64,000 nucleotides of DNA from Candidatus Cacconaster merdequi (GTDB lineage Bacteria > Bacteroidota > Bacteroidia > Bacteroidales > UBA932): the NCBI GenBank assembly GCA_018064345.1, contig JAGHVK010000033.1:1-64000 (forward strand), read 5' to 3'. The position numbers and the translations under genes are program-made. Position 1 is the first letter of the stretch, and every line of letters starts with the position of its first letter. This document shows positions 18,529 to 34,864 of this stretch, piece after piece. A model generated the notes under the pieces. It was not told where the DNA came from and did no database searches. It saw only the letters and a list, made by a program, of their open reading frames with translations.

Positions 18529-18639
18529 AATATTGATTTCAGCATTTTTCCTGCCTCCTGCAGGAAATTGTTTTTTCGTACCGTTCATTTCGGAGTGAAT
18601 GGCTGACCTTTGCATTCGGAAATCAAACCGGAGCAAACG

Positions 18640-18798
18640 ATGGAATCTTTCGAAAAAACGATAAAACCTCTGACCGACCTCGACCTGACTGCGGAATATC
18701 TTTTACCCGACACACCCGTGGTCTCTCTAATTCTCAATTATCTGATATGTCTTGCTACTGTTCTGCTGTCAATCAGGTCGGTCTTTTTATTTCTCTGA
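18640..18798 (+). CDS. 52-aa small peptide with hydrophobic C-terminal half, upstream of the peptide exporter
   Basis: MESFEKTIKPLTDLDLTAEYLLPDTPVVSLILNYLICLATVLLSIRSVFLFL; position suggests membership of the export locus. Confidence 0.45.
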   Translation: MESFEKTIKPLTDLDLTAEYLLPDTPVVSLILNYLICLATVLLSIRSVFLFL

Positions 18799-18929: not shown

Positions 18930-20993
18930 ATGAAGAAAACTGTACGGCAACACGACATAACCGACTGTGCCTCCGCCTGCATAGCATCCATTACAAGGCA
19001 CTTCGGCAAATACATCCCTCTTACACTGATACGGGAGGCGTCAGGCACATCTTCCGCCGGAACATCAATCAAGGGAATCATTGATGCCTGCACGGCCCTC
19101 GGCCTTGTGGCAAAGGCCTACAAGTCGGACACAGGCGACATTGCAGTTCTCCGCAGCACTCCGCTGCCGGTCATTCTGCACGTACTTACAAAAGAGGGAG
19201 ACCTCCATTTCGTGGTGCTGTATGGAATCGGCAGACGGAGAGTCAGGGTTATGGACCCTGCCTCAGGAACAATGAAAAGAATGTCATTCAAGGAGCTGAA
19301 GGATATATGGAGCGGATTTGTGGTAACCGTCCACCCGTCGGACAAGTTCAAGGAATTGTCCGCAGGAAGGAAGGGCGGCTCCGTCCTCCGGTATGCCGGA
19401 CTGCTCTCCCGCAGGGAATATGCCGCTATGGTTTCAGGCACTCTGGCCTACACAATGGCAGGAATCTGCATTTCGCTCTTCCTGCAGCACATAATTGACA
19501 ACGTGATTCCGGCTCATGACCCGCATGAACTTGTCCGTGCCTGTACCCTGATGGCCGCACTTATGGTATCAGCCATACTGATGGGCTATGAAAGGATACG
19601 TTACTCCCTCAAAGTGAATATCAAGATGGATTGCAGGCTGATGCTCGGCTACCTCGACCACCTGTTCCATCTTCCCGTAGGCTTCTTCTCCCACAGAGGT
19701 GCGGGAGAACTCCATTCCAGACTGGACGATGCATCGAAGATCAGGGCGTTCCTCGCCGACGGCATAATAACCGCCGTCACGGGAATAACGATGATATGCC
19801 TTTCCTTCGTGCTGATGTTCGTCTTCCATCGCAAGCTGGCGCTGCTCATCCTGCTGTTCATTCCTGTTTACCTTTTTCTCTACTCAATCGCTGACAGAGT
19901 GAACAGAAAAGTGAACCGCGAGGTAATCGAGAGTTCTTCCGCTTTTGAGGAGAAAGTAGTGGAAGGTATCAGCGCCGCAAGGCTCATCCGGCACTTCGGA
20001 AGCGAAGGAACCATTTTCAGCGGAATAGAGAAAAAATATGTGGCTCTGTCCGACAAACTCTTCAAGGGAGGCAGATGTGTCGGAATCTTTGCCTCTGCCG
20101 CAGACGCCCTTTCAAAACTGATGACGGTAGCCCTGCTGACCGCAGGCTCCATATTCATATTCGAAGGCAGCCTGAGTATCGGAGAACTCGTATCTTTCTA
20201 TGCACTCACGGCATTGTTCGCCTCTCCCATCAGCCAGATCATCGACCTGAACGGCCGGTACACCGAGGCGAAGATTTCCGCGGAAAGGCTTGAGGACATC
20301 ACCCTGCTCTCAAGGGAGGATGCCACAGCCTGCGCCACACTCCCGTTCCGTGAAGGCGAGGATATCATATTCGAAAACGTATCATTCTCATACCCCGGAT
20401 GTCCCGCCCTGCTGGAAAGATTCAACGCAGTGATACCTCACGGAAAGATAACTGCAATACAAGGTGAATCCGGCTGCGGCAAAAGCACGCTTGCCTCACT
20501 CCTGATGCGTGACTACACCCTTCACGAAGGCAAGATATTCCTTGGTGGGACTGACATCAGCCTGATAGCTCTTGATGAATGGAGACGTGCTGCATCCATC
20601 ATACATCAGGAGCCGGAGATGCTCAACCGCAGTATTCTCGACAACATCTGCTGCCTGGAAAAATCGCCTGATATCAAAAGGGTTGCATCCATTCTTGAAG
20701 ACCTCGGCCTGCACGACTTCATAACCGCACTCCCAATGGGACTGCTGACCCCGATAGGAGAAAGAGGCTGCACCCTCTCAGGAGGCCAGAAGCAAAGGAT
20801 AGCTCTTGCCAGGGCTCTTTACCGTGACCCTGAAATACTCATACTTGACGAAGCCACATCCTCTCTTGACAACGTATCCCAGAAATATGTGCTTGACAAG
20901 ATTGTCAGGTTGCGCGATGCTGGAAAAACAATAGTGATGATAACCCACAAAACCGACAACATTGCAATTGCCGATAACATAATCAGACTATAA
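18930..20993 (+). CDS. Peptidase-containing (C39) ABC transporter for double-glycine peptides
   Basis: C39 domain VRQHDITDCASACIASI...HFVVLYG...VMDPASG; ABC domain GESGCGKSTL, LSGGQKQRIALARALYRDPEILILDEATSSLD. Confidence 0.95.
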   Translation: MKKTVRQHDITDCASACIASITRHFGKYIPLTLIREASGTSSAGTSIKGIIDACTALGLVAKAYKSDTGDIAVLRSTPLPVILHVLTKEGDLHFVVLYGIGRRRVRVMDPASGTMKRMSFKELKDIWSGFVVTVHPSDKFKELSAGRKGGSVLRYAGLLSRREYAAMVSGTLAYTMAGICISLFLQHIIDNVIPAHDPHELVRACTLMAALMVSAILMGYERIRYSLKVNIKMDCRLMLGYLDHLFHLPVGFFSHRGAGELHSRLDDASKIRAFLADGIITAVTGITMICLSFVLMFVFHRKLALLILLFIPVYLFLYSIADRVNRKVNREVIESSSAFEEKVVEGISAARLIRHFGSEGTIFSGIEKKYVALSDKLFKGGRCVGIFASAADALSKLMTVALLTAGSIFIFEGSLSIGELVSFYALTALFASPISQIIDLNGRYTEAKISAERLEDITLLSREDATACATLPFREGEDIIFENVSFSYPGCPALLERFNAVIPHGKITAIQGESGCGKSTLASLLMRDYTLHEGKIFLGGTDISLIALDEWRRAASIIHQEPEMLNRSILDNICCLEKSPDIKRVASILEDLGLHDFITALPMGLLTPIGERGCTLSGGQKQRIALARALYRDPEILILDEATSSLDNVSQKYVLDKIVRLRDAGKTIVMITHKTDNIAIADNIIRL

Positions 20994-21059
20994 GGGCGCA
21001 CTTATACAGGTAACTGCCGCCACCTGAAAGAGCGGTATAACTTAAAATCAACACCAAAA

Positions 21060-21257
21060 ATGGAAGAAACAATGATTTTGAAGGGCTTGCGAGAGGTGAC
21101 TTCTTCCGAGCTTCAGATGCGTGGAGGTGCCAAGAAAAGCACCTTTTCACAGATTGTCGACAAAATCCGCAATTTCATCGACTTTCTGTCGGATTACATT
21201 CCTCAGATAATCAAGGGGTTCACTGACGGACTCACAGGCGTTCCACTTCTCAGATAA
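21060..21257 (+). CDS. Double-glycine-leader peptide 1 (candidate bacteriocin subunit)
   Basis: MEETMILKGLREVTSSELQMRGG|AKKSTFSQIVDKIRNFIDFLSDYIPQIIKGFTDGLTGVPLLR; 23-aa leader, 42-aa mature, GFTDG = GxxxG. Confidence 0.8.
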   Translation: MEETMILKGLREVTSSELQMRGGAKKSTFSQIVDKIRNFIDFLSDYIPQIIKGFTDGLTGVPLLR

Positions 21258-21267
21258 GGAGGTTGTC

Positions 21268-21447
21268 ATGGATGGAAGATTTAACAGCGGGCTCACTCCC
21301 GTCGGAATGTCGGAATGTGCCTTCATATTAGGTGGCGTGGACAAGAGAGCGCAGGATGCGCTTTACACAATCGGTTACATCATCGGAATGGTTGTCAAAT
21401 TTGTCGTAGCTCTTTTCTCTTTCAACAAAACTAAGGAAGTACTCTAA
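21268..21447 (+). CDS. Double-glycine-leader peptide 2 (candidate bacteriocin subunit)
   Basis: Hand translation MDGRFNSGLTPVGMSECAFILGG|VDKRAQDALYTIGYIIGMVVKFVVALFSFNKTKEVL; 23-aa leader, 36-aa mature, GYIIG = GxxxG; AAGGAGG ahead of start; absent from supplied ORF track. Confidence 0.8.
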   Translation: MDGRFNSGLTPVGMSECAFILGGVDKRAQDALYTIGYIIGMVVKFVVALFSFNKTKEVL

Positions 21448-21503: not shown

Positions 21504-22772
21504 ATGAAACTGTTTCATATTTCCTTGACACTGCTGCTCACGACGATATCAACATTTTGCTGGGCACAGGTCTGGACTCTTGACGAGTGTCTCAGACATT
21601 CGCTTGCCAACAACCGGCAGATAAAGCTGCAACGTCTGGAATCCGACCGGTTGCACACACAGGTCCGTGCCGGGTACCTTGACATGCTCCCTGCACTCTC
21701 TTTCACCTTCAGCGACAGTTTCGGGTGGAAGAAGGCCTTCTCCGGTGACAACAACCCCACATTCGACTTTACAGGCAGCCTCACACTCTTCCACGGTCTT
21801 TCCGCCCATTGGAAATGCAGGACAGCTGAAGATGCGTACGAAATATCCAGGCTCGAAGAGAGCGGAATGGAGGAGGACCTGACTATTGAGACCATCGAGG
21901 CATACCTGCAACTGGGTCAGAGTTACCAGCAGCTCGAATACGCACGGAGCGGATATGAGTCGTCCCTGCGTGAATCAGAAAGGACGAATCTTCTGGTTGA
22001 GAGCGGGTTGCAGCCATTGAGCGCACGCTATCAGATTGAATCTCAATTATCTGCTGACAGGGCCGCCGTCGTCGAAGCCGAGAGTGCCATCAAGAGCCGC
22101 ACGCTCGAACTCTGCCAGTTGATGGACGTACCATATTCTGAAAATTTCGTCATCGACCTGTACGGTCCTGAAAGTGACACCCTGGCAGCTCCCTCAACCT
22201 GTCCGTCAGGTTTCGTGGAAAAGGTTGCACTTCGGAACCCCAAATATATCGGATGCCTCACAGCCATCCGGCAGAACCGGAATCTCCACAAGCAAAGCAT
22301 CGCTATGCTGTCACCTGAGATCTCTTTTGTCGCCGGTTACTCGGCATCTCTCGGTCCATCTTCCCACAGACTCGGGGACTCTTTCGGAATAAGCATATCA
22401 CTTCCGATATGTGGAGCCTGGCAGCATCTTGCAAAGGTACAGGAAGCGAAAATCGGGATAAGGAAGGCCGAAACGGAAGCCGGGAGAGTACGAAGGGAGA
22501 TAGAATCACTTTTGGAAAAGATTACGATTGAAACGGAAAACTGCTATGGGAAAGCCTTGGCTGCACGTGATGCCCTCAAGGCGAGCGAGGAACTTATGCG
22601 GACAAGTGAGCTCAAATACAGCCGCGGGCTGATGACAGCGACCGACTATCTTCTTTCCAGAAATGAATTGGACAAGGCTCGCAGCACATTTCTCAAGGAG
22701 AAATGGCAGTACCTGTTCCGTTCAAGAATCATCGAGTACTATATGACACGTTATTGTGATGAACAAGGATAA
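21504..22772 (+). CDS. TolC-family outer-membrane channel
   Basis: VWTLDECLRHSLANNRQIKLQRLESDRLHTQVRAGYLDMLPALSFTFSDS; OEP repeat pattern. Confidence 0.92.
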   Translation: MKLFHISLTLLLTTISTFCWAQVWTLDECLRHSLANNRQIKLQRLESDRLHTQVRAGYLDMLPALSFTFSDSFGWKKAFSGDNNPTFDFTGSLTLFHGLSAHWKCRTAEDAYEISRLEESGMEEDLTIETIEAYLQLGQSYQQLEYARSGYESSLRESERTNLLVESGLQPLSARYQIESQLSADRAAVVEAESAIKSRTLELCQLMDVPYSENFVIDLYGPESDTLAAPSTCPSGFVEKVALRNPKYIGCLTAIRQNRNLHKQSIAMLSPEISFVAGYSASLGPSSHRLGDSFGISISLPICGAWQHLAKVQEAKIGIRKAETEAGRVRREIESLLEKITIETENCYGKALAARDALKASEELMRTSELKYSRGLMTATDYLLSRNELDKARSTFLKEKWQYLFRSRIIEYYMTRYCDEQG

Positions 22773-23946
22773 AAAAAAGAAAAGGACGGTATTTGCCGCA
22801 GCCATTGTCATAGCTGCTGCACTTTTATTCTTCCGCAAGGGGGACTCCGCAATCGAAGTCACTGTCTCTCAAGCGAAGAGTGGCATAATCGAGGACGCTG
22901 TCCCGGCAAGTGGGAAAGTGCGGCCCATTGTGGAGGTCAAGATATCTCCGGACGTATCCGGGGAGATTGTTGAATTGAACTGCCAGGAAGGTGACACCGT
23001 CTCGAAGGGAGATGTCATAATCCGTATCCGCGAGGATCTCTATGTCTCTCAAGTAGAGCAGGCAGAGGCTGCACTGCGGTCTATGGAAGCTGAACTCCGG
23101 CGACAGGAGGCAGAGTGTGAGCAGGCCCGGGTGAACCTCACCCGTACAGAATACTTATACAATAACAACGCTGTCTCACTTTCTGAATATGAAGCAGCTT
23201 CTGCCGAAGCGGAAGTAATGGCGGAAAGAGTGAATGCCGCAAAGTTCGGAGTCCTCAACAGTGAAGCGCAACTGCGCGAGACTCAGGAGAATCTCAAGAA
23301 AACCACCATTCTGGCCCCTATGTCAGGAATAATATCCCGGCTGTTTGTTGAAAAAGGGGAACGGGTGGTGGGAACAAGCCAGATGGCAGGGACCGAGATG
23401 CTCAGGATAGCGGACTTCAGCCGGATGGAAGCGATAGTGGACGTCGGAGAAAGCGACATTGTCCGTCTGAGGTGCGGAGACAGCGCAGAAGTCGCAGTTG
23501 ATGCCTATCCGGACAGTAAATTCCGCGGCATAGTGACACAAATTGCAAATTCGGCAAAAAATATTGGTACAACCTTCGAGCAAGTTACTAACTTTGAGGT
23601 CCGGATTGAGATAGTCGGCCGGATGTGGGGCGAAGCGCCCTCGCCGGTGCTGCTTCCCGGTATGTCAGCTACGGTATCCATCAACACGCAACCTTCTGAT
23701 GAGTGCATCACAGTACCGTTGGAAAGTGTGTTCACCGACAGAGGAAAGACTTTCGTATGGGTGGTTGGCGAAGACAGCAAAGTATCTGCGAGGCAGATAC
23801 ATACCGGAATGCAGGACCTCAACGGAATTGAGGTGAAAAGCGGAATAGAAGAGGGAGAGACCCTCGTCACCGGACCGCCTCAGGCCGTGGACAACACTCT
23901 TTCCGAAAGTTGTAAGGTTAAATTGGCAAACTCCAGCAAGAGATGA
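22756..23946 (+). CDS. HlyD/MacA-type periplasmic adaptor
   Basis: ISPDVSGEIVELNCQEGDTVSKGDVIIRIREDLY; coiled-coil hairpin; APMSGIISRLFVEKGERV. Confidence 0.9.
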   Translation: MMNKDKKKKRTVFAAAIVIAAALLFFRKGDSAIEVTVSQAKSGIIEDAVPASGKVRPIVEVKISPDVSGEIVELNCQEGDTVSKGDVIIRIREDLYVSQVEQAEAALRSMEAELRRQEAECEQARVNLTRTEYLYNNNAVSLSEYEAASAEAEVMAERVNAAKFGVLNSEAQLRETQENLKKTTILAPMSGIISRLFVEKGERVVGTSQMAGTEMLRIADFSRMEAIVDVGESDIVRLRCGDSAEVAVDAYPDSKFRGIVTQIANSAKNIGTTFEQVTNFEVRIEIVGRMWGEAPSPVLLPGMSATVSINTQPSDECITVPLESVFTDRGKTFVWVVGEDSKVSARQIHTGMQDLNGIEVKSGIEEGETLVTGPPQAVDNTLSESCKVKLANSSKR

Positions 23947-24635
23947 GTTCAAGGATATTGGCAATAGAGACAAGCACCGAATGTTGCTCGGTCGCGTTGT
24001 TTGAAGATGAACGCCTTTTGGCAAAACGCAGCAGCAATGCTCCCAAGGTACACGCGTCAATGCTTGTGCCTTTCATTGACCAGGTACTGAAAGAGGGTGG
24101 ATGCTCTGCAACAGACCTCGATGCGGTTGCCGTAAGCGAGGGACCGGGGTCATACACCGGCCTGCGCGTAGGTGTATCCACCGCGAAGGGTATATGTTTC
24201 GGCACAGGGAAACCTTTGCTTGCCATCGACACTCTTCAGATTCTTGCCCTGCGTGGAATCTCCCACGAATGTGCTCCTCAAAGAATCATCCCTTTCATAG
24301 ATGCCAGGAGGATGGAGGTCTATACCGCCATCTTTGACGGCAATGGTTCAAAACTCAGTGAAACGGCCCCTGTGATTCTGGACGAAAACAGCTTCAGCGA
24401 AGAATTGTCAAAAGGGCCTGTCCTTTTCATAGGAACCGGAGTCGAAAAGTTCCGGGGCATCTGCAAGAGTCCGAACGCCTTTTTTGTAGAATGTTACCCT
24501 ATGGCCGATTATATGGCCTCCGGTGCCTTCGCTGCCTTGAAAAAGAAAGAGTTCAAAGACATTGCGTACTTTGAACCCTTCTACCTCAAGGACTTTATGA
24601 TCGGTGTGAGCAAAAAGTCCCTTCTACAGCCTTAG
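23943..24635 (+). CDS. tsaB: tRNA threonylcarbamoyladenosine biosynthesis protein TsaB
   Basis: ILAIETSTECCSVALFEDERLLA...VAVSEGPGSYTGLRVGVSTAKGICFG; ATGA overlap with upstream gene. Confidence 0.95.
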   Translation: MSSRILAIETSTECCSVALFEDERLLAKRSSNAPKVHASMLVPFIDQVLKEGGCSATDLDAVAVSEGPGSYTGLRVGVSTAKGICFGTGKPLLAIDTLQILALRGISHECAPQRIIPFIDARRMEVYTAIFDGNGSKLSETAPVILDENSFSEELSKGPVLFIGTGVEKFRGICKSPNAFFVECYPMADYMASGAFAALKKKEFKDIAYFEPFYLKDFMIGVSKKSLLQP

Positions 24636-28316: not shown

Positions 28317-29495
28317 CTATCGTGCGTGATAAGGCACTACAAGACCATCCTTCCTGATTGTCACGATGAACGCGTCAGGATACTTGTGCTTTACACTCTG
28401 GAGTTTATTCCTTGCCTCTTCAAGAGTATCGGCGAAAAGCACATAGCGGCGCAGGTCACCGTTCTTGTATATGACAGGATTGTCACCGTGGAAAATCTTG
28501 TCGTCCGGTGCATGCTGGTAGATTCTGAAAGCATAGATCTGAACGGCATAATCGGCAAGAGGAACTTCCGTCTCCAGAAAACCGTTATTATATACAGGTT
28601 CCTTCTCCTCTTTCACCACATATACCGTATCAACTCTTGACTCGACTCTCACTATCTGAGGAGGCACAACCGGCGCTTCGTAAGTATGTCTGCGGCGATG
28701 GCGATATTTTCCGTATCCGAAATTGAAACGCAGGGAGACTCCTGCATTCCAGATGCCTGTCGGAGCATGTTCGTATTTCTGTGGAAAATACTTGTATTCC
28801 CCGACAAGGCCGAGCGTAAGACGGCGGGACAGGTCGAACTCCATCGAGAGAATCAAAGGGATGTACCAGGCGTTGAACTGGTTCTTGTCGGTGTAGGAAT
28901 TGACGTGGGAGTGGTTCCAGATGCTCATATGCCCGTCATCCTTGGAAACGAGGTTCTCATCCACAGCCCAAGTGTATGTATGCGTGTTCCATCCGTGCAT
29001 ATATCCGGCGCCTATGCTTGTCCATATATTGAACCACTGGCTCTCGCGTTCCCTCCATATCTCCACGAAATTGATTCCGAGGGTAAGGTCCGTGGAAGCC
29101 ATATTCGTGAAGTTGCGGTTCTGGAGTCTTGAACTGTTGATTTCCAAGTCACCTATGAGTCCCTCCTTTTCCGTATTCGGGAAGATTTCTGTCCTTGGCA
29201 GCACGTTCTTGTCTGACGACTTGAGATATGTATATCCCAAATCAAGGCCGAAACGCACCCATGGACGAGGAAAGAACATCAATCCCAGGTCTCCTGAAGG
29301 AGCAATCTTCGGGGTGTCGTAGGTGTACTGGTCGTTCTGTCCGTTCATACCGTGGAACCCGGCGACACCTCCCTGGATGTAGAATCCCCAGGTACTGGTG
29401 CGGAGAGTGTCGTTGAGTTCCGGCTGAGCCTGCATTACGGCAGCTGCGCCAAACAGCATCGCAGCCACCAGGGTTATTTTTGTAAAGAGTTTCAT
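28317..29495 (-). CDS. Outer-membrane beta-barrel protein with C-terminal SPOR-like domain
   Basis: Signal peptide ending MQAQ; barrel strands; C-terminal DYAVQIYAFRIY...RRYVLFADTLEEARNKLQSVKHKYPDAFIV. Confidence 0.7.
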   Translation of the reverse strand: MKLFTKITLVAAMLFGAAAVMQAQPELNDTLRTSTWGFYIQGGVAGFHGMNGQNDQYTYDTPKIAPSGDLGLMFFPRPWVRFGLDLGYTYLKSSDKNVLPRTEIFPNTEKEGLIGDLEINSSRLQNRNFTNMASTDLTLGINFVEIWRERESQWFNIWTSIGAGYMHGWNTHTYTWAVDENLVSKDDGHMSIWNHSHVNSYTDKNQFNAWYIPLILSMEFDLSRRLTLGLVGEYKYFPQKYEHAPTGIWNAGVSLRFNFGYGKYRHRRRHTYEAPVVPPQIVRVESRVDTVYVVKEEKEPVYNNGFLETEVPLADYAVQIYAFRIYQHAPDDKIFHGDNPVIYKNGDLRRYVLFADTLEEARNKLQSVKHKYPDAFIVTIRKDGLVVPYHAR

Positions 29496-32400
29496 TATCT
29501 TATATCAGGATGTGCTGCAAGCCAGTCATTGGTGTATTTTTGAATATCTTCAGGCCAAACGCCATCATCTTCGAGCTGATCTTCATTTCCGCCGGTACCG
29601 GTAATCCATTTGTTGCTTGAATTAGTTCCTTTGTAAGGCTTGGAGAAACCTGTCTGAATACAGTAAATATATGCTTCAGGCTGGATGTATACACCTGTCT
29701 CCTTATTGTAGATATTGAATATCACAGGAATAGGAGTGGCTCCACCATTGTACCACTTAGGGTAATCCGTATGGGTGTTTGAGTAGTCAGCTTCATTACT
29801 TGGCATATCTTTGTATTCGGATATCTTCTTGCCATCCACAAAATAATCAGGGTCAGGCCCGGTTACCTGCTTGTCAGTCTTGAGATACCTTGCAGCATAA
29901 TAGTGCTGATCAGAGCCATCCACGTCATCAGTCTTGATACCATATATCATACGGAATGAGCAGACTTCGTGAATCTTGATAAGCCATATTTCCTTAGTGG
30001 ATTGGGCTTTCACCTCAACCAAAGTCTTGTTGTCAGAGTCAGTTATAGTTACGCCTGTGCTATATATCCTTCCTTCATAAGCGCGCACCCTCTTCCAAAT
30101 GGAATGGCCATGCTTGGTTGATTTGCTATAATCATATGTTGCACTGGTAATCAGCTTTCCACTGTTGTCATACGTCTGTGTGACATATTGAGTTTTGGAC
30201 GGAGCTGTCATCCTGGCCTCCATCTCGAGCAGGCTTGCAATTGCGATTTCGGTTTCAGAACTCTTGTCAGCAGCCTCACGAGCTTCAGGAGTAAGATATA
30301 TCGCAGAGTATTTACCCGCGAACTCTCCGGTTTTTATGAGCTTGGTACTATCGAGATATACACCATCCGATATTGCAAGCAATTCTTTAAGCAGATGGTT
30401 GTTGATACCGAGGAGTTCAATGATTTCCGACAAATCTACTTTGTGGTCGATCAATTGTTCAAGAATCTTGGCAATGTCCTCACCTGCGGTACCAAGACCC
30501 TCAAGAATATCTGCGGCTGTATCGTTCCCTGTCTGCAGAAGTGCCGACAGAGAAGTAGTCTGTGCACCGATTGCACTTGCAATCGTTGTTGCTCCTGCAT
30601 TGATTGCACCGACAATCGAGCCGTCAGGGCCAAGAGCAAGTACGATTGCATCGCCCTGCTTGTTGATTGCAACTTCAAGCTTTCCGCCAATCGTCTTGAC
30701 CGCCTGTACAAGACTGTCAAGGCTTGCCTTCAGGTCGGTGTCGAGCTTGAGGATTGCTTCTGTGTTGGCATCGATACTTATCTTGAGAGTATCTCTCATA
30801 CCGTTGATTGCCTTTTCAATATTCTCAAGGTTGGTCTTCGTCGCAGCAAAGCCGTTCAGGATGTTTGTCCCTATCGTTCCAAGCTTTCCGGAAAGATCTG
30901 TAAACTCAGTGGTAAGTTCTGCAGTCTGGTCATCGATGGCAACCACTATCTCACCAAGTCCGCTTTCAACCGTTGTATTGATTGCATCGATCTTGTCTGA
31001 CAAGTCACCGCTGACACTTTCAAGAGCAGCCTTCAAGTCCGCGGTATTGGCCTTGATTGCAGCCTCGATAAGTTCTCCGGATGCCTTTATCTGGAGCTGT
31101 ATCAATTCACCGTTTTCGTTGATTGCGGTAACTATCTTGTCGCCGTTGGCATCAACTTTCTGTGAGAGGGCTGTGAGTCCGCCAAGAATGTCGTCGAGGC
31201 CGTCCTTGAGTTTCTTCGCGCCATCATTGATAGCTTTCTCGAGAGCGCCCAGGTCGATTGTCAGGGTGTCGCCAAGATGGTTCACTGCTACGACTACGTC
31301 AGCAAGGCCATCCTTCAATGCCTTGCTGAGGGCATCGAACTTGGCCTCACCGGATACATTGGTGTCACCGAGGGCTTCAACTATCGCTGTTGCCGCATCA
31401 TCGATAGAAGCATCTATAAGCTCGCCGTTGGCCTTGAGCTGCAACTTGATTACTTCTCCGTTGTCGTTGATTGCCTTGACTATCTTGTCACCGTTGGCAT
31501 CAACTTTCTGTGAAAGTGAATTAAGCCCGCCGAGGAGGTCGTCGAGACCGTCCTTGAGCTTCTTCGCGCCATCGTTGATTGCTTTCTCGAGAGCACCCAG
31601 GTCGATTGTCAGGGTGTCGCCAAGATGGTTCACTGCTACGACTACGTCAGCAAGGCCGTCCTTCAACGCATCGTTGAGGGCATCGAACTTGGCTTCAAGA
31701 GAGGCGTTGTTGTCACCGAGGGCATTCACTATCGCTGTTGCCGCATCATCGATAGAAGCATCTATGAGTTCGCCGTTGGCCTTGAGCTGCAACTCGATTA
31801 CTTCTCCGTTGTCGTTGATTGCCTTGACAATCTTGTCACCGTTTCCGCCTATGGTTATATTGATTGTCTCAAGTTCTCCGAGAAGGTCATCGAGACCGTC
31901 CTTCAAATCCTTGAGGCTTCCCTGCAATGCTCCTGCAAGAGAGCCGAAGTTGAAGGTAATATGATTGTCAAGCTCGTCAAGGCTTACATTGATATCAGCA
32001 AGTCCCTTGGCAAGAGCTTCCTTCAATGCATCGAACCTTGCTTCGAGAGATGCGTTCTGGTCCTTCATCGCCTTTACGATGTCAGCTGCGCCATTGACAA
32101 CGGATGCCGAAACAAGTTTGCCGCTTGCGTCAATCTGAAGCCTGAGCGCCTCACCGTTGCGGTTCATCGCTGTCACGATGTTGTCCCCGTTGAGAGCCAC
32201 TTTGTTGCTCAGGGCGGTCATTCCATCGACAAGTTTGTCGAGTCCGGCCTTCAATGCAGCGGTATTGTCACCGAGAGCATCTTTCAATGCATCGAGATTG
32301 ATTGAAACCACATTGGTAAGACCGTCAATCTTGACAGCAATCTTGTCAAGTCCGTCACCGATTGCCCTGTTCAATGCATCAATCTTGTTCGCAAGGCTGA

Positions 32401-34864
32401 TGTTCTGGTCATCAAGGGCATCAATGAGCTTTTCGAGGGTGTCGGCAATGATTCCCAGTTCGATTGAAATCACATTGCCAAGCTCATCAATATGGAGAGC
32501 CACCTTGTTTCCGCTCTGGTCTATCGCATATACAATCCTGTCGCCGGTCTTGTAAACCTCAAGTTCGAGGGAGGCAAGAGCGCGTTCCATAGTCCTTGCT
32601 AGAGTCGTTCCAAGGTCGAAGAGTCCGGTATTCAGGTTCCTGAGCTGGAATTCGAGCTGATCGCCCACGTTGCCGAGCTTTATCTTGATGTCGGCAAGTC
32701 CTGTCGTTATCGCTGTGTTGAGGGCGTTCATCCTGTCGGAGAGAGCAAGAGTCTGGTTGCCGATTGCACGGGCGATTTCGTCTGCGGTGTCCTTCAGCTC
32801 AGCGCTGATAAGGTTGCCGGCCTCGTTGATTCTCAAAGCAATCAGCTGACCTTCAACATCTATCGCATAGACAATCTTGTTTCCAGTAGCCTCGATCTGT
32901 GAGCGCAGAGCCCTGAAACCGTCGAGCAGGGTGACGTTCATTCCATAAAGGTTGTCATTTATCTCGCCAAGTTCTGAAACTATAGCTTTGAAAGGTTCAG
33001 GGTCAATAGTAATCTTGAGATTTGCGAAACCATCGGCAATGAGTTTGTTCAGAGCGGCCAATCTCTTGTCGAGAGTATCGTTCAGATTGTTGATTGCCTG
33101 GACGAGAGCCTCTGCGGCACTGGCTATCCGGAAGGATATCAGCTGACCGTTTTCATCTATCTTCATTGCAATGGTCTCACCATTCTTGTTCAAGGCATAT
33201 ATGATGTCTTCACCGGACTCGGTGATGACCTTGCCAAGATACTCATATCCGCTGATAACGGCATTGCTCAGAGTTCCGAGCTTTTCGCAGATATTGGTAT
33301 ATCCCATATAGATAGTACCGCCAAGTTCTCCAAGTTTCACATTGACTCCGAAGAGTCCGGACTGGATGGCAGTATTGACAGCTGCTATCTGGCGTTCAAG
33401 TGAAACAGTGTTGCCGTTGATTGCTGCAACTATGTCAGATGCAGAAGCAAGCATCTGAGCGGCGAGAAGGTCACCGGTCTCATCGAGCTGGAGTGATATC
33501 ACCTCACCCTGCTTGTTGATTGCGTAGATGATACCGCCACCTGTTTCAATCATCTGCTGCTTGAGTACTGAGAAGCCCTCAAGGATGGATGTATTGATAT
33601 TTCCGAGAGCCTCGTCAAGAGCTTCGAATCCGGCAGCCAGGACGTTGTCGCTTGCCTTCATTGAAATCCTTACCTTGAGGAGTTCGCAGGTGATCGCCTT
33701 GGTCAATGCATCGAGCCTGTCGGCAAGAGGAGCAGACAAATCGTTGATGGCATCAGCAATCACTGATGCAGATTCTGCAATGGATGCTGAGATAAGTTCT
33801 CCATTCTCGTTGATTGCAAGGGTTATCACCTCTCCTGTCTCGGAAATGGCACTGACAATCTTGTTGCCGTTTTCGCTGATGCGGCAGTTGAGAACCTTGA
33901 ACCCGTTGAATACATTGGTGCTCAGTTCACCGAGAATCTTGTTCACCTTGCAGAACTGGAACTTCAATATTTCGCCGACTTCACCGACACTGACCTTCAC
34001 GTCAGCCAAACCGGTTCTGACAGCGCAGGAGAGAGCCTGTATCTTGTTGGCAAGAGAGCAGGTCTGGCTGTTTATGGCATCGGCTATCTCCTTGGCATTC
34101 GCCTCGAAGCCGGCAGCTATGAGTTCTCCGGCATTGCCGATGCGGAGGGCTATGACCTCACCGTTGGTGTTGAGAGCATATACAATGTCGTTCTTGTCTT
34201 CGGCCATCTGAGCCTTCAATGCCTCGAAACCGTTGAACAAAGTTGCATCGAGAGACTTGATTGCTGCGTTCAGATTTGAATAACTTGCGCTTATCTTGTC
34301 ACCGGCAGTGTAAGCGACAACTATCTTGGCAAGACCGGCCTCAAGGATCACGTTCAAGGAGTCGAGCCTTTCGCCCATATCACGGTTCTTGTCGTTCACA
34401 GCTGCCACGAGCTGGTCTGTCTGCGCCTTGATAGCGGCGGAAATGAGTTTTCCGTTACCGTCAATGCTCAAGGATATGAGATCGCCCTGGGCGTTGATTG
34501 CATAGACAAGTTTGTCACCGGTGTTTCCAACTACGGTCTTCAAAGCGCAGAATCCGTCCAGAAGGGCGGAAATCACACCTTGCAGGTCCGACGAGACCTG
34601 AGTGGTCTGAGCCTTGATGGCATTGGTATTGGCATCGATGGCCACGATTATGCCGTCGTAATTGTCCGACACAATCTGATTCAAAGCAGCCAGTTTGTCG
34701 GCAAGATTCTTTGCCTGCTGGACAAGAGCGGAGTAATCATTGACATAAGTCTTGTCTCCGAAATCCACTTCCGGAGAGAAAACCTCCACGCAGGACGAAA
34801 CCACTCCTCCACATAGGGAAAGTGAAAAAGCGACCAACAAAAGGCCTAACAATTTGTGTTTCAT
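29495..34864 (-). CDS. 1789-aa predicted lipoprotein with about 11 tandem ~110-118-aa repeats
   Basis: N-terminal MKHKLLGLLLVAFSLSLCGGVVSSC lipobox; recurring G[DN]KIVxAIxxxGExIxLxIxxxGELIxAxI...; stop overlaps next start (TAATG). Confidence 0.85.
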   Translation of the reverse strand: MKHKLLGLLLVAFSLSLCGGVVSSCVEVFSPEVDFGDKTYVNDYSALVQQAKNLADKLAALNQIVSDNYDGIIVAIDANTNAIKAQTTQVSSDLQGVISALLDGFCALKTVVGNTGDKLVYAINAQGDLISLSIDGNGKLISAAIKAQTDQLVAAVNDKNRDMGERLDSLNVILEAGLAKIVVAYTAGDKISASYSNLNAAIKSLDATLFNGFEALKAQMAEDKNDIVYALNTNGEVIALRIGNAGELIAAGFEANAKEIADAINSQTCSLANKIQALSCAVRTGLADVKVSVGEVGEILKFQFCKVNKILGELSTNVFNGFKVLNCRISENGNKIVSAISETGEVITLAINENGELISASIAESASVIADAINDLSAPLADRLDALTKAITCELLKVRISMKASDNVLAAGFEALDEALGNINTSILEGFSVLKQQMIETGGGIIYAINKQGEVISLQLDETGDLLAAQMLASASDIVAAINGNTVSLERQIAAVNTAIQSGLFGVNVKLGELGGTIYMGYTNICEKLGTLSNAVISGYEYLGKVITESGEDIIYALNKNGETIAMKIDENGQLISFRIASAAEALVQAINNLNDTLDKRLAALNKLIADGFANLKITIDPEPFKAIVSELGEINDNLYGMNVTLLDGFRALRSQIEATGNKIVYAIDVEGQLIALRINEAGNLISAELKDTADEIARAIGNQTLALSDRMNALNTAITTGLADIKIKLGNVGDQLEFQLRNLNTGLFDLGTTLARTMERALASLELEVYKTGDRIVYAIDQSGNKVALHIDELGNVISIELGIIADTLEKLIDALDDQNISLANKIDALNRAIGDGLDKIAVKIDGLTNVVSINLDALKDALGDNTAALKAGLDKLVDGMTALSNKVALNGDNIVTAMNRNGEALRLQIDASGKLVSASVVNGAADIVKAMKDQNASLEARFDALKEALAKGLADINVSLDELDNHITFNFGSLAGALQGSLKDLKDGLDDLLGELETINITIGGNGDKIVKAINDNGEVIELQLKANGELIDASIDDAATAIVNALGDNNASLEAKFDALNDALKDGLADVVVAVNHLGDTLTIDLGALEKAINDGAKKLKDGLDDLLGGLNSLSQKVDANGDKIVKAINDNGEVIKLQLKANGELIDASIDDAATAIVEALGDTNVSGEAKFDALSKALKDGLADVVVAVNHLGDTLTIDLGALEKAINDGAKKLKDGLDDILGGLTALSQKVDANGDKIVTAINENGELIQLQIKASGELIEAAIKANTADLKAALESVSGDLSDKIDAINTTVESGLGEIVVAIDDQTAELTTEFTDLSGKLGTIGTNILNGFAATKTNLENIEKAINGMRDTLKISIDANTEAILKLDTDLKASLDSLVQAVKTIGGKLEVAINKQGDAIVLALGPDGSIVGAINAGATTIASAIGAQTTSLSALLQTGNDTAADILEGLGTAGEDIAKILEQLIDHKVDLSEIIELLGINNHLLKELLAISDGVYLDSTKLIKTGEFAGKYSAIYLTPEAREAADKSSETEIAIASLLEMEARMTAPSKTQYVTQTYDNSGKLITSATYDYSKSTKHGHSIWKRVRAYEGRIYSTGVTITDSDNKTLVEVKAQSTKEIWLIKIHEVCSFRMIYGIKTDDVDGSDQHYYAARYLKTDKQVTGPDPDYFVDGKKISEYKDMPSNEADYSNTHTDYPKWYNGGATPIPVIFNIYNKETGVYIQPEAYIYCIQTGFSKPYKGTNSSNKWITGTGGNEDQLEDDGVWPEDIQKYTNDWLAAHPDIR
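31146..31841 (-). repeat. Two adjacent near-identical 348-bp repeat units inside the giant gene
   Basis: Two 116-aa units (about 31494-31841 and 31146-31493) with 10 aa differences by hand alignment. Confidence 0.85.

Follow-up and report, generated by a model that had tools for sequence, protein, structure and literature searches.

The class IIb bacteriocin plantaricin JK of Lactiplantibacillus plantarum consists of two short helical peptides, PlnJ and PlnK, that interact via GxxxG motifs and permeabilise membranes (PMC4985602), and proteins of the CPBP/Abi type are a known immunity class for two-peptide (class IIb) bacteriocins (PMC6957408). In Bacteroidales, each bacteroidetocin is a single four-cysteine peptide, accompanied by a thiol oxidoreductase and a protein with five transmembrane (TM) segments and lacking an immunity protein (PMC6671954). 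The gonococcal Nap peptides, which carry double-glycine (GG) leaders, are bacteriocin-like and drive autolysis, and they do not kill competitors (PMC11798529). Class II bacteriocins have already been predicted in Bacteroidota through large-scale mining (PMC12648078); no report of a two-peptide GxxxG system of this type in Bacteroidota turned up in our literature search. Here we analyse a candidate for such a system in a 64,000-nucleotide stretch of Candidatus Cacconaster merdequi (assembly GCA_018064345.1, contig JAGHVK010000033.1, positions 1 to 64,000; hereafter the window), where two tandem open reading frames (ORFs), pepA and pepB, follow the gene for a C39-peptidase ATP-binding cassette (ABC) exporter. 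We propose that this locus probably encodes a secreted class IIb-like two-peptide bacteriocin.

Results

A conserved peptide pair with GG leaders

The window is part of a draft genome of 1.9 Mb that is 84% complete and divided into 120 contigs; all features of the locus lie on the forward strand. Based on the translations, pepA (ORF A, 21060-21257) encodes a 65-aa precursor with a leader at residues 1-23 and a mature part of 42 aa containing GFTDG, and pepB (ORF B, 21268-21447) encodes a 59-aa precursor with a leader of the same extent and a mature part of 36 aa containing GYIIG. The two genes are spaced by 10 bp, each leader terminates in GG, and both mature peptides have a net charge of +2 and are free of cysteine. 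Upstream lies the gene for the 687-aa exporter (18930-20993), which matches Peptidase_C39, ABC_membrane and ABC_tran (PF03412, PF00664 and PF00005). Downstream are the genes for a TolC-type outer membrane channel (21504-22772; PF02321, OEP, E-value 7e-37) and a periplasmic adaptor of the RND_mfp or MacA-like type (22756-23946; TIGR01730, 189.5 bits against a cut-off of 94.9). The initial annotation, made from the letters of the window, had described the pair with its spacing, leaders, mature lengths, positive charge and motifs, and had placed it between exporter and TolC and adaptor genes; coordinates, translations and domain matches bear out each of these points. Its inventory of the locus was right as to peptides, exporter, TolC and adaptor, and it overlooked a small gene, X (18640-18798), and an RNA element (20988-21041).

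Both peptide genes stand behind a homologous exporter in all 36 readable loci of the genus, one more locus being cut by a contig end, and the tandem pair behind a C39 exporter also occurs in most sister genera; the ORF pair therefore counts as real. The pooled ratio of nonsynonymous to synonymous polymorphism (pN/pS) in close locus pairs was 0.23 for pepA and 0.22 for pepB, compared with 0.18 for the exporter gene and 0.52 for X. pepA and pepB are under purifying selection, and pepB is strongly conserved within the genus.

Since GxxxG arises by chance in 13% of shuffled A and 5% of shuffled B mature peptides, the motif in the window alone is weak evidence. When 79 pairs are aligned, conservation in the mature parts is highest at the two glycines of GxxxG in each chain. 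These positions are 100% and 99% G in A; in B the first is G or A in 100% of pairs (82% G, 18% A) and the second is 100% G. Whole-precursor identity to the peptides of the window drops to 11-30% in distant genera, where the glycines stay top-conserved. The pair-collecting script, which yielded the 79 curated tandem-pair loci (alignments of 52 rows were also used), required loose GxxxG-like spacing; the motif is also present in four loci that it discarded or paired wrongly (L082, L086, L087 and L118, read by eye). The ORFs, GG sites and GxxxG motifs are conserved family-wide, and it was on the conservation of the ORFs and GG sites that the initial annotation had staked its proposal. AlphaFold models of A and B, each folded singly from a single sequence, place helices at residues 28-59 of pepA and 26-58 of pepB (core pLDDT, the predicted local distance difference test, 93-95), so that each mature peptide is predicted to be one helix.

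Likeness to class IIb bacteriocins and other systems

The locus has the traits by which class IIb bacteriocins are recognised: two different, adjacent peptide genes in the 79 curated loci, GG leaders with a C39 ABC exporter and predicted cleavage, GxxxG or GxxxG-like motifs in both chains, and short cationic mature peptides predicted to be helical. The mature-peptide profiles were tested on a panel of eight class IIb peptides, with 3000 shuffles per panel member as the background; of the eight, the PlnJ and PlnK sequences were checked against the PDB. With the A profile, plantaricin J scored above all shuffles (0/3000), and with the B profile plantaricin K scored above all but one of 3000, as did the panel sequence of lactococcin G-alpha. 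Crossed chain combinations between the two profiles and the panel gave no match. In an open PDB search with the A profile, PlnJ ranked 7th of 177,635 sequences; its E-value, 1.1, is not significant by itself. PDB searches with genus-only alignments (A3, A4) were uninformative, and their armadillo matches were repeat artefacts.

Like plantaricin JK, the window system has two short, predicted helical peptides with GxxxG, and KGFxDG is common to A and PlnJ, as IGYxxG is to B and PlnK. Unlike plantaricin JK, it belongs to a Gram-negative host, has an adaptor and TolC beside the exporter, a longer mature A, a syntenic core locus and a pseudoknot RNA, and induction-regulation genes were not seen at the locus. 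Because the shared stretch is short, the resemblance suggests a likeness of design, and common descent is not proven. The fit of the B profile to lactococcin G-alpha also recalls the lactococcin G/enterocin 1071 group, whose LagC-type immunity protein was not seen in the window system. Three A members match the model of that group, NF038034, weakly (best E-value 0.0012), and the one match inspected reached 13.5 bits against a curated cut-off of 37.

Among Bacteroidales systems, the bacteroidetocins (PMC6671954) share with this locus a GG leader, a C39 ABC exporter and a mature peptide of about 42 aa. The window system differs from them in being a peptide pair with cysteine-free mature parts and in lacking an oxidoreductase or five-TM partner; with no mature cysteine and with different neighbours, the locus does not fit the bacteroidetocin pattern. 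The gonococcal Nap peptides (PMC11798529) likewise come from a Gram-negative bacterium, have GG leaders and a C39 peptidase and resemble bacteriocins, but they differ in forming a horizontally acquired island of several peptides, with a role in autolysis and a different export channel. One pepA member (L099:6846-7031) has a weak match to the AMEP412 elicitor family, NF040841 (E-value 0.044; 14.1 bits against a cut-off of 45), and the best E-value for this model among all members was 0.00041.

Synteny across the genus and family

Homologues of the exporter (E-value ≤1e-120) were found in 161 of 300 genomes of the family and, with one match each, in 37 of the 40 genomes of the genus, the window's own included. 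The three negative genomes are G217, G251 and G275, the last of which is 51% complete. Neither G217 nor G251 has a proper tsaB match, and the region is therefore probably missing from these two assemblies. The order ileS-cvpA-exporter-A-B-TolC-adaptor-tsaB is common to most sampled genera. In the window, tsaB (23943-24635; TIGR03725, E-value 4e-51) is a housekeeping gene that forms the downstream border and lies outside the system.

Some genera depart from this order. TolC and the adaptor are partly absent from the site in genus g16, where the exporter and peptide pair of loci L049-L055 stand directly before tsaB. In g23 and g17, cvpA adjoins tsaB with nothing between, that is, the site is empty, and in g9 and g24 TolC and the adaptor lie beside tsaB without a C39 exporter or peptides. 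From the empty sites and from TolC and the adaptor standing alone, the movable unit appears to be the exporter and the peptide pair, plus X where present. In loci L137 and L140, TolC and the adaptor adjoin tsaB without exporter or peptides, which suggests that these two genes are older at the site than the peptide module.

A search of genome contigs returned one true relative (L038, a metagenome-assembled genome labelled 'Bacteroidales bacterium') and one plain ABC match. An order-wide search found no such tandem pair in the 15 loci read outside the family, some of which had single GG-leader ORFs. Other C39 exporters without the tandem pair were seen at L071, L072, L078, L092 and L093, some near other small GG-leader ORFs.

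Candidate immunity genes

Gene X encodes a 52-aa protein with a single C-terminal TM segment and may represent an immunity or accessory protein. It is kept in several sister genera and, within the genus, at 34 of 37 loci; in most other genera, X proteins of about 46-60 aa with a single C-terminal TM segment are encoded upstream of the exporter. Gene X had no match in Pfam. A conserved TTTGC element (18605-18612), about 27 nt upstream of X, resembles the -7 box of Bacteroidales promoters and may serve as a promoter; when 23 genus loci are aligned, almost all retain its CTTTGC. We do not claim a -33 promoter box, as the spacing did not fit.

Each of the eight loci from genus g22 carries a CPBP/Rce1-like gene (PF02517, E-value 1.5e-15) between pepB and TolC, and no X was found in these eight. 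In the encoded protein, an additional histidine accompanies the EXXXR and FXXXH motifs. It shares its motifs with the known CPBP/Abi immunity proteins (PMC6957408) and its gene adjoins the peptide pair, and by analogy it may confer immunity; the genus of the window differs in having no CPBP gene and X instead.

A covarying RNA element before pepA

The RNA element between exporter and pepA comprises a hairpin, P1 (20991-21004), which starts at the exporter stop codon, followed by an H-type pseudoknot (21007-21037) that stops 22 nt short of the pepA ATG. Stem S1 of the pseudoknot pairs 21007-21011 with 21022-21026 and stem S2 pairs 21015-21020 with 21032-21037. In the alignment of 28 genus sequences, 93% of cells are paired and 12 of the 14 pairs of the whole element show double-sided changes, including all five pairs of P1; none of 500 shuffles reached any of the measures, covariation in the pseudoknot among them. 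The covariation score was 0.48, compared with at most 0.13 in slid controls, although the slid control is biased in favour of the structure, which was derived from the same sequences; the shuffles and double changes are independent of that bias.

A descriptor scan recovered the same architecture, in unrelated sequence, ahead of pepA in most other genera, and did not find it there in g22. In front of other starts it is seldom seen: 56 of 79 pepA leaders scored 24 or more, against 2 of 79 for pepB and 4 of the 58 long ORFs in the window. A covariance model, built without the pseudoknot stem, scored strongly once per genome in 37 of the 40 genus genomes, each time just behind the exporter. No model of Rfam 15 (4227 models) matched over the element, and matches to IRES_Hsp70, RsmY, MtlS and IRES_Bip in the window and related loci fell below gathering scores and were put down to chance. 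The element may set peptide output.

Discussion

We consider a secreted class IIb-like two-peptide bacteriocin the most likely explanation of this locus, and hold it with reasonable, by no means full, confidence. The C39 domain would cut both precursors at GG, and the peptides would leave through the ABC exporter, probably helped by the adaptor and TolC encoded next to it. Once in a target membrane, the A and B helices would join via GxxxG and make the membrane permeable, as described for plantaricin JK. The producer may be protected by X, or by the CPBP protein in g22, and the hairpin and pseudoknot before pepA may set how much peptide is made relative to exporter. The chain-specific resemblance to plantaricins J and K and the g22 CPBP gene are new evidence in favour of the class IIb-like character proposed in the initial annotation.

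Several observations weigh against this explanation. The operon occurs almost throughout the genus, is passed on vertically and shows no diversifying selection (peptide pN/pS about 0.22, exporter 0.18), a pattern that is unusual for bacteriocins, which are typically patchy. X is absent from three of the 37 genus loci that keep the peptides (L022, L025 and L030), and no candidate immunity gene, X included, was found in the g16 and g12 loci; X is for these reasons only a candidate. No member of the family passes the curated class IIb bacteriocin models of NCBIfam or Pfam. In addition, TolC and the adaptor may not be dedicated to this export, because g9 and g24 keep them beside tsaB in the absence of the peptide module.

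The core-genome, vertical and non-diversifying pattern lends some probability to a role on the producer population itself, and the wording "bacteriocin or signal" of the initial annotation was well chosen. The pair could be a core trait acting in communication, autolysis, biofilm or membrane adjustment, which we think rather unlikely but deserving of serious weight. Presence at one syntenic site, purifying selection, the strong conservation of pepB within the genus and the several genera without an immunity candidate all accord with such a role, for which the autolytic Nap peptides (PMC11798529) offer a precedent. On the other hand, the operon has no sensor kinase or regulator, the g22 CPBP gene and the single-TM X elsewhere fit a need for protection, and GxxxG in both chains suits a membrane-inserted pair. 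A bolder and doubtful version would see a GxxxG-paired system in the core genome of the genus and its relatives, expressed under its own pseudoknot RNA and serving to control membranes of kin or of the producer itself in place of ordinary competition; X would then represent a novel kind of immunity or regulatory protein. That the peptides are exported for another purpose, as factors for an animal host or as structural surface peptides, with no membrane killing, seems improbable: the genomes with the locus are known only as sequence, which leaves room for it, while the plantaricin J/K-like chain pairing, the CPBP neighbour and the conserved mature glycines at a helix-pairing motif all speak against it.

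Two further alternatives concern parts of the locus. The RNA element might be a DNA operator or an incidental repeat with no working RNA structure, and the centre of P1, GTGCGCAC, is indeed palindromic, nearly constant and operator-like. Both pseudoknot stems covary, however, the double changes, shuffles and slid controls favour a structured RNA, and the architecture persists in most other genera despite different sequence, which makes an operator or repeat very improbable. As for the ORFs, they are short, and neither A nor B of the window matches a Pfam or NCBIfam family above the cut-offs, as chance ORFs or an annotation artefact would. Their conservation in many genera, purifying selection and fixed order and spacing already refute such an origin, the probability of which is close to nil.

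If the peptides are active, a whole lineage would carry an antibacterial pair as a core trait, along with exchangeable types of immunity and an RNA element absent from Rfam. The GxxxG motifs, X, the CPBP gene and the pseudoknot provide clear handles for genetic tests. Elsewhere in the window, the reverse strand carries a 1789-aa ORF composed of many similar repeats (29495-34864), the span of which includes a tandem DNA repeat with a unit of about 348 bp (31106-31984).
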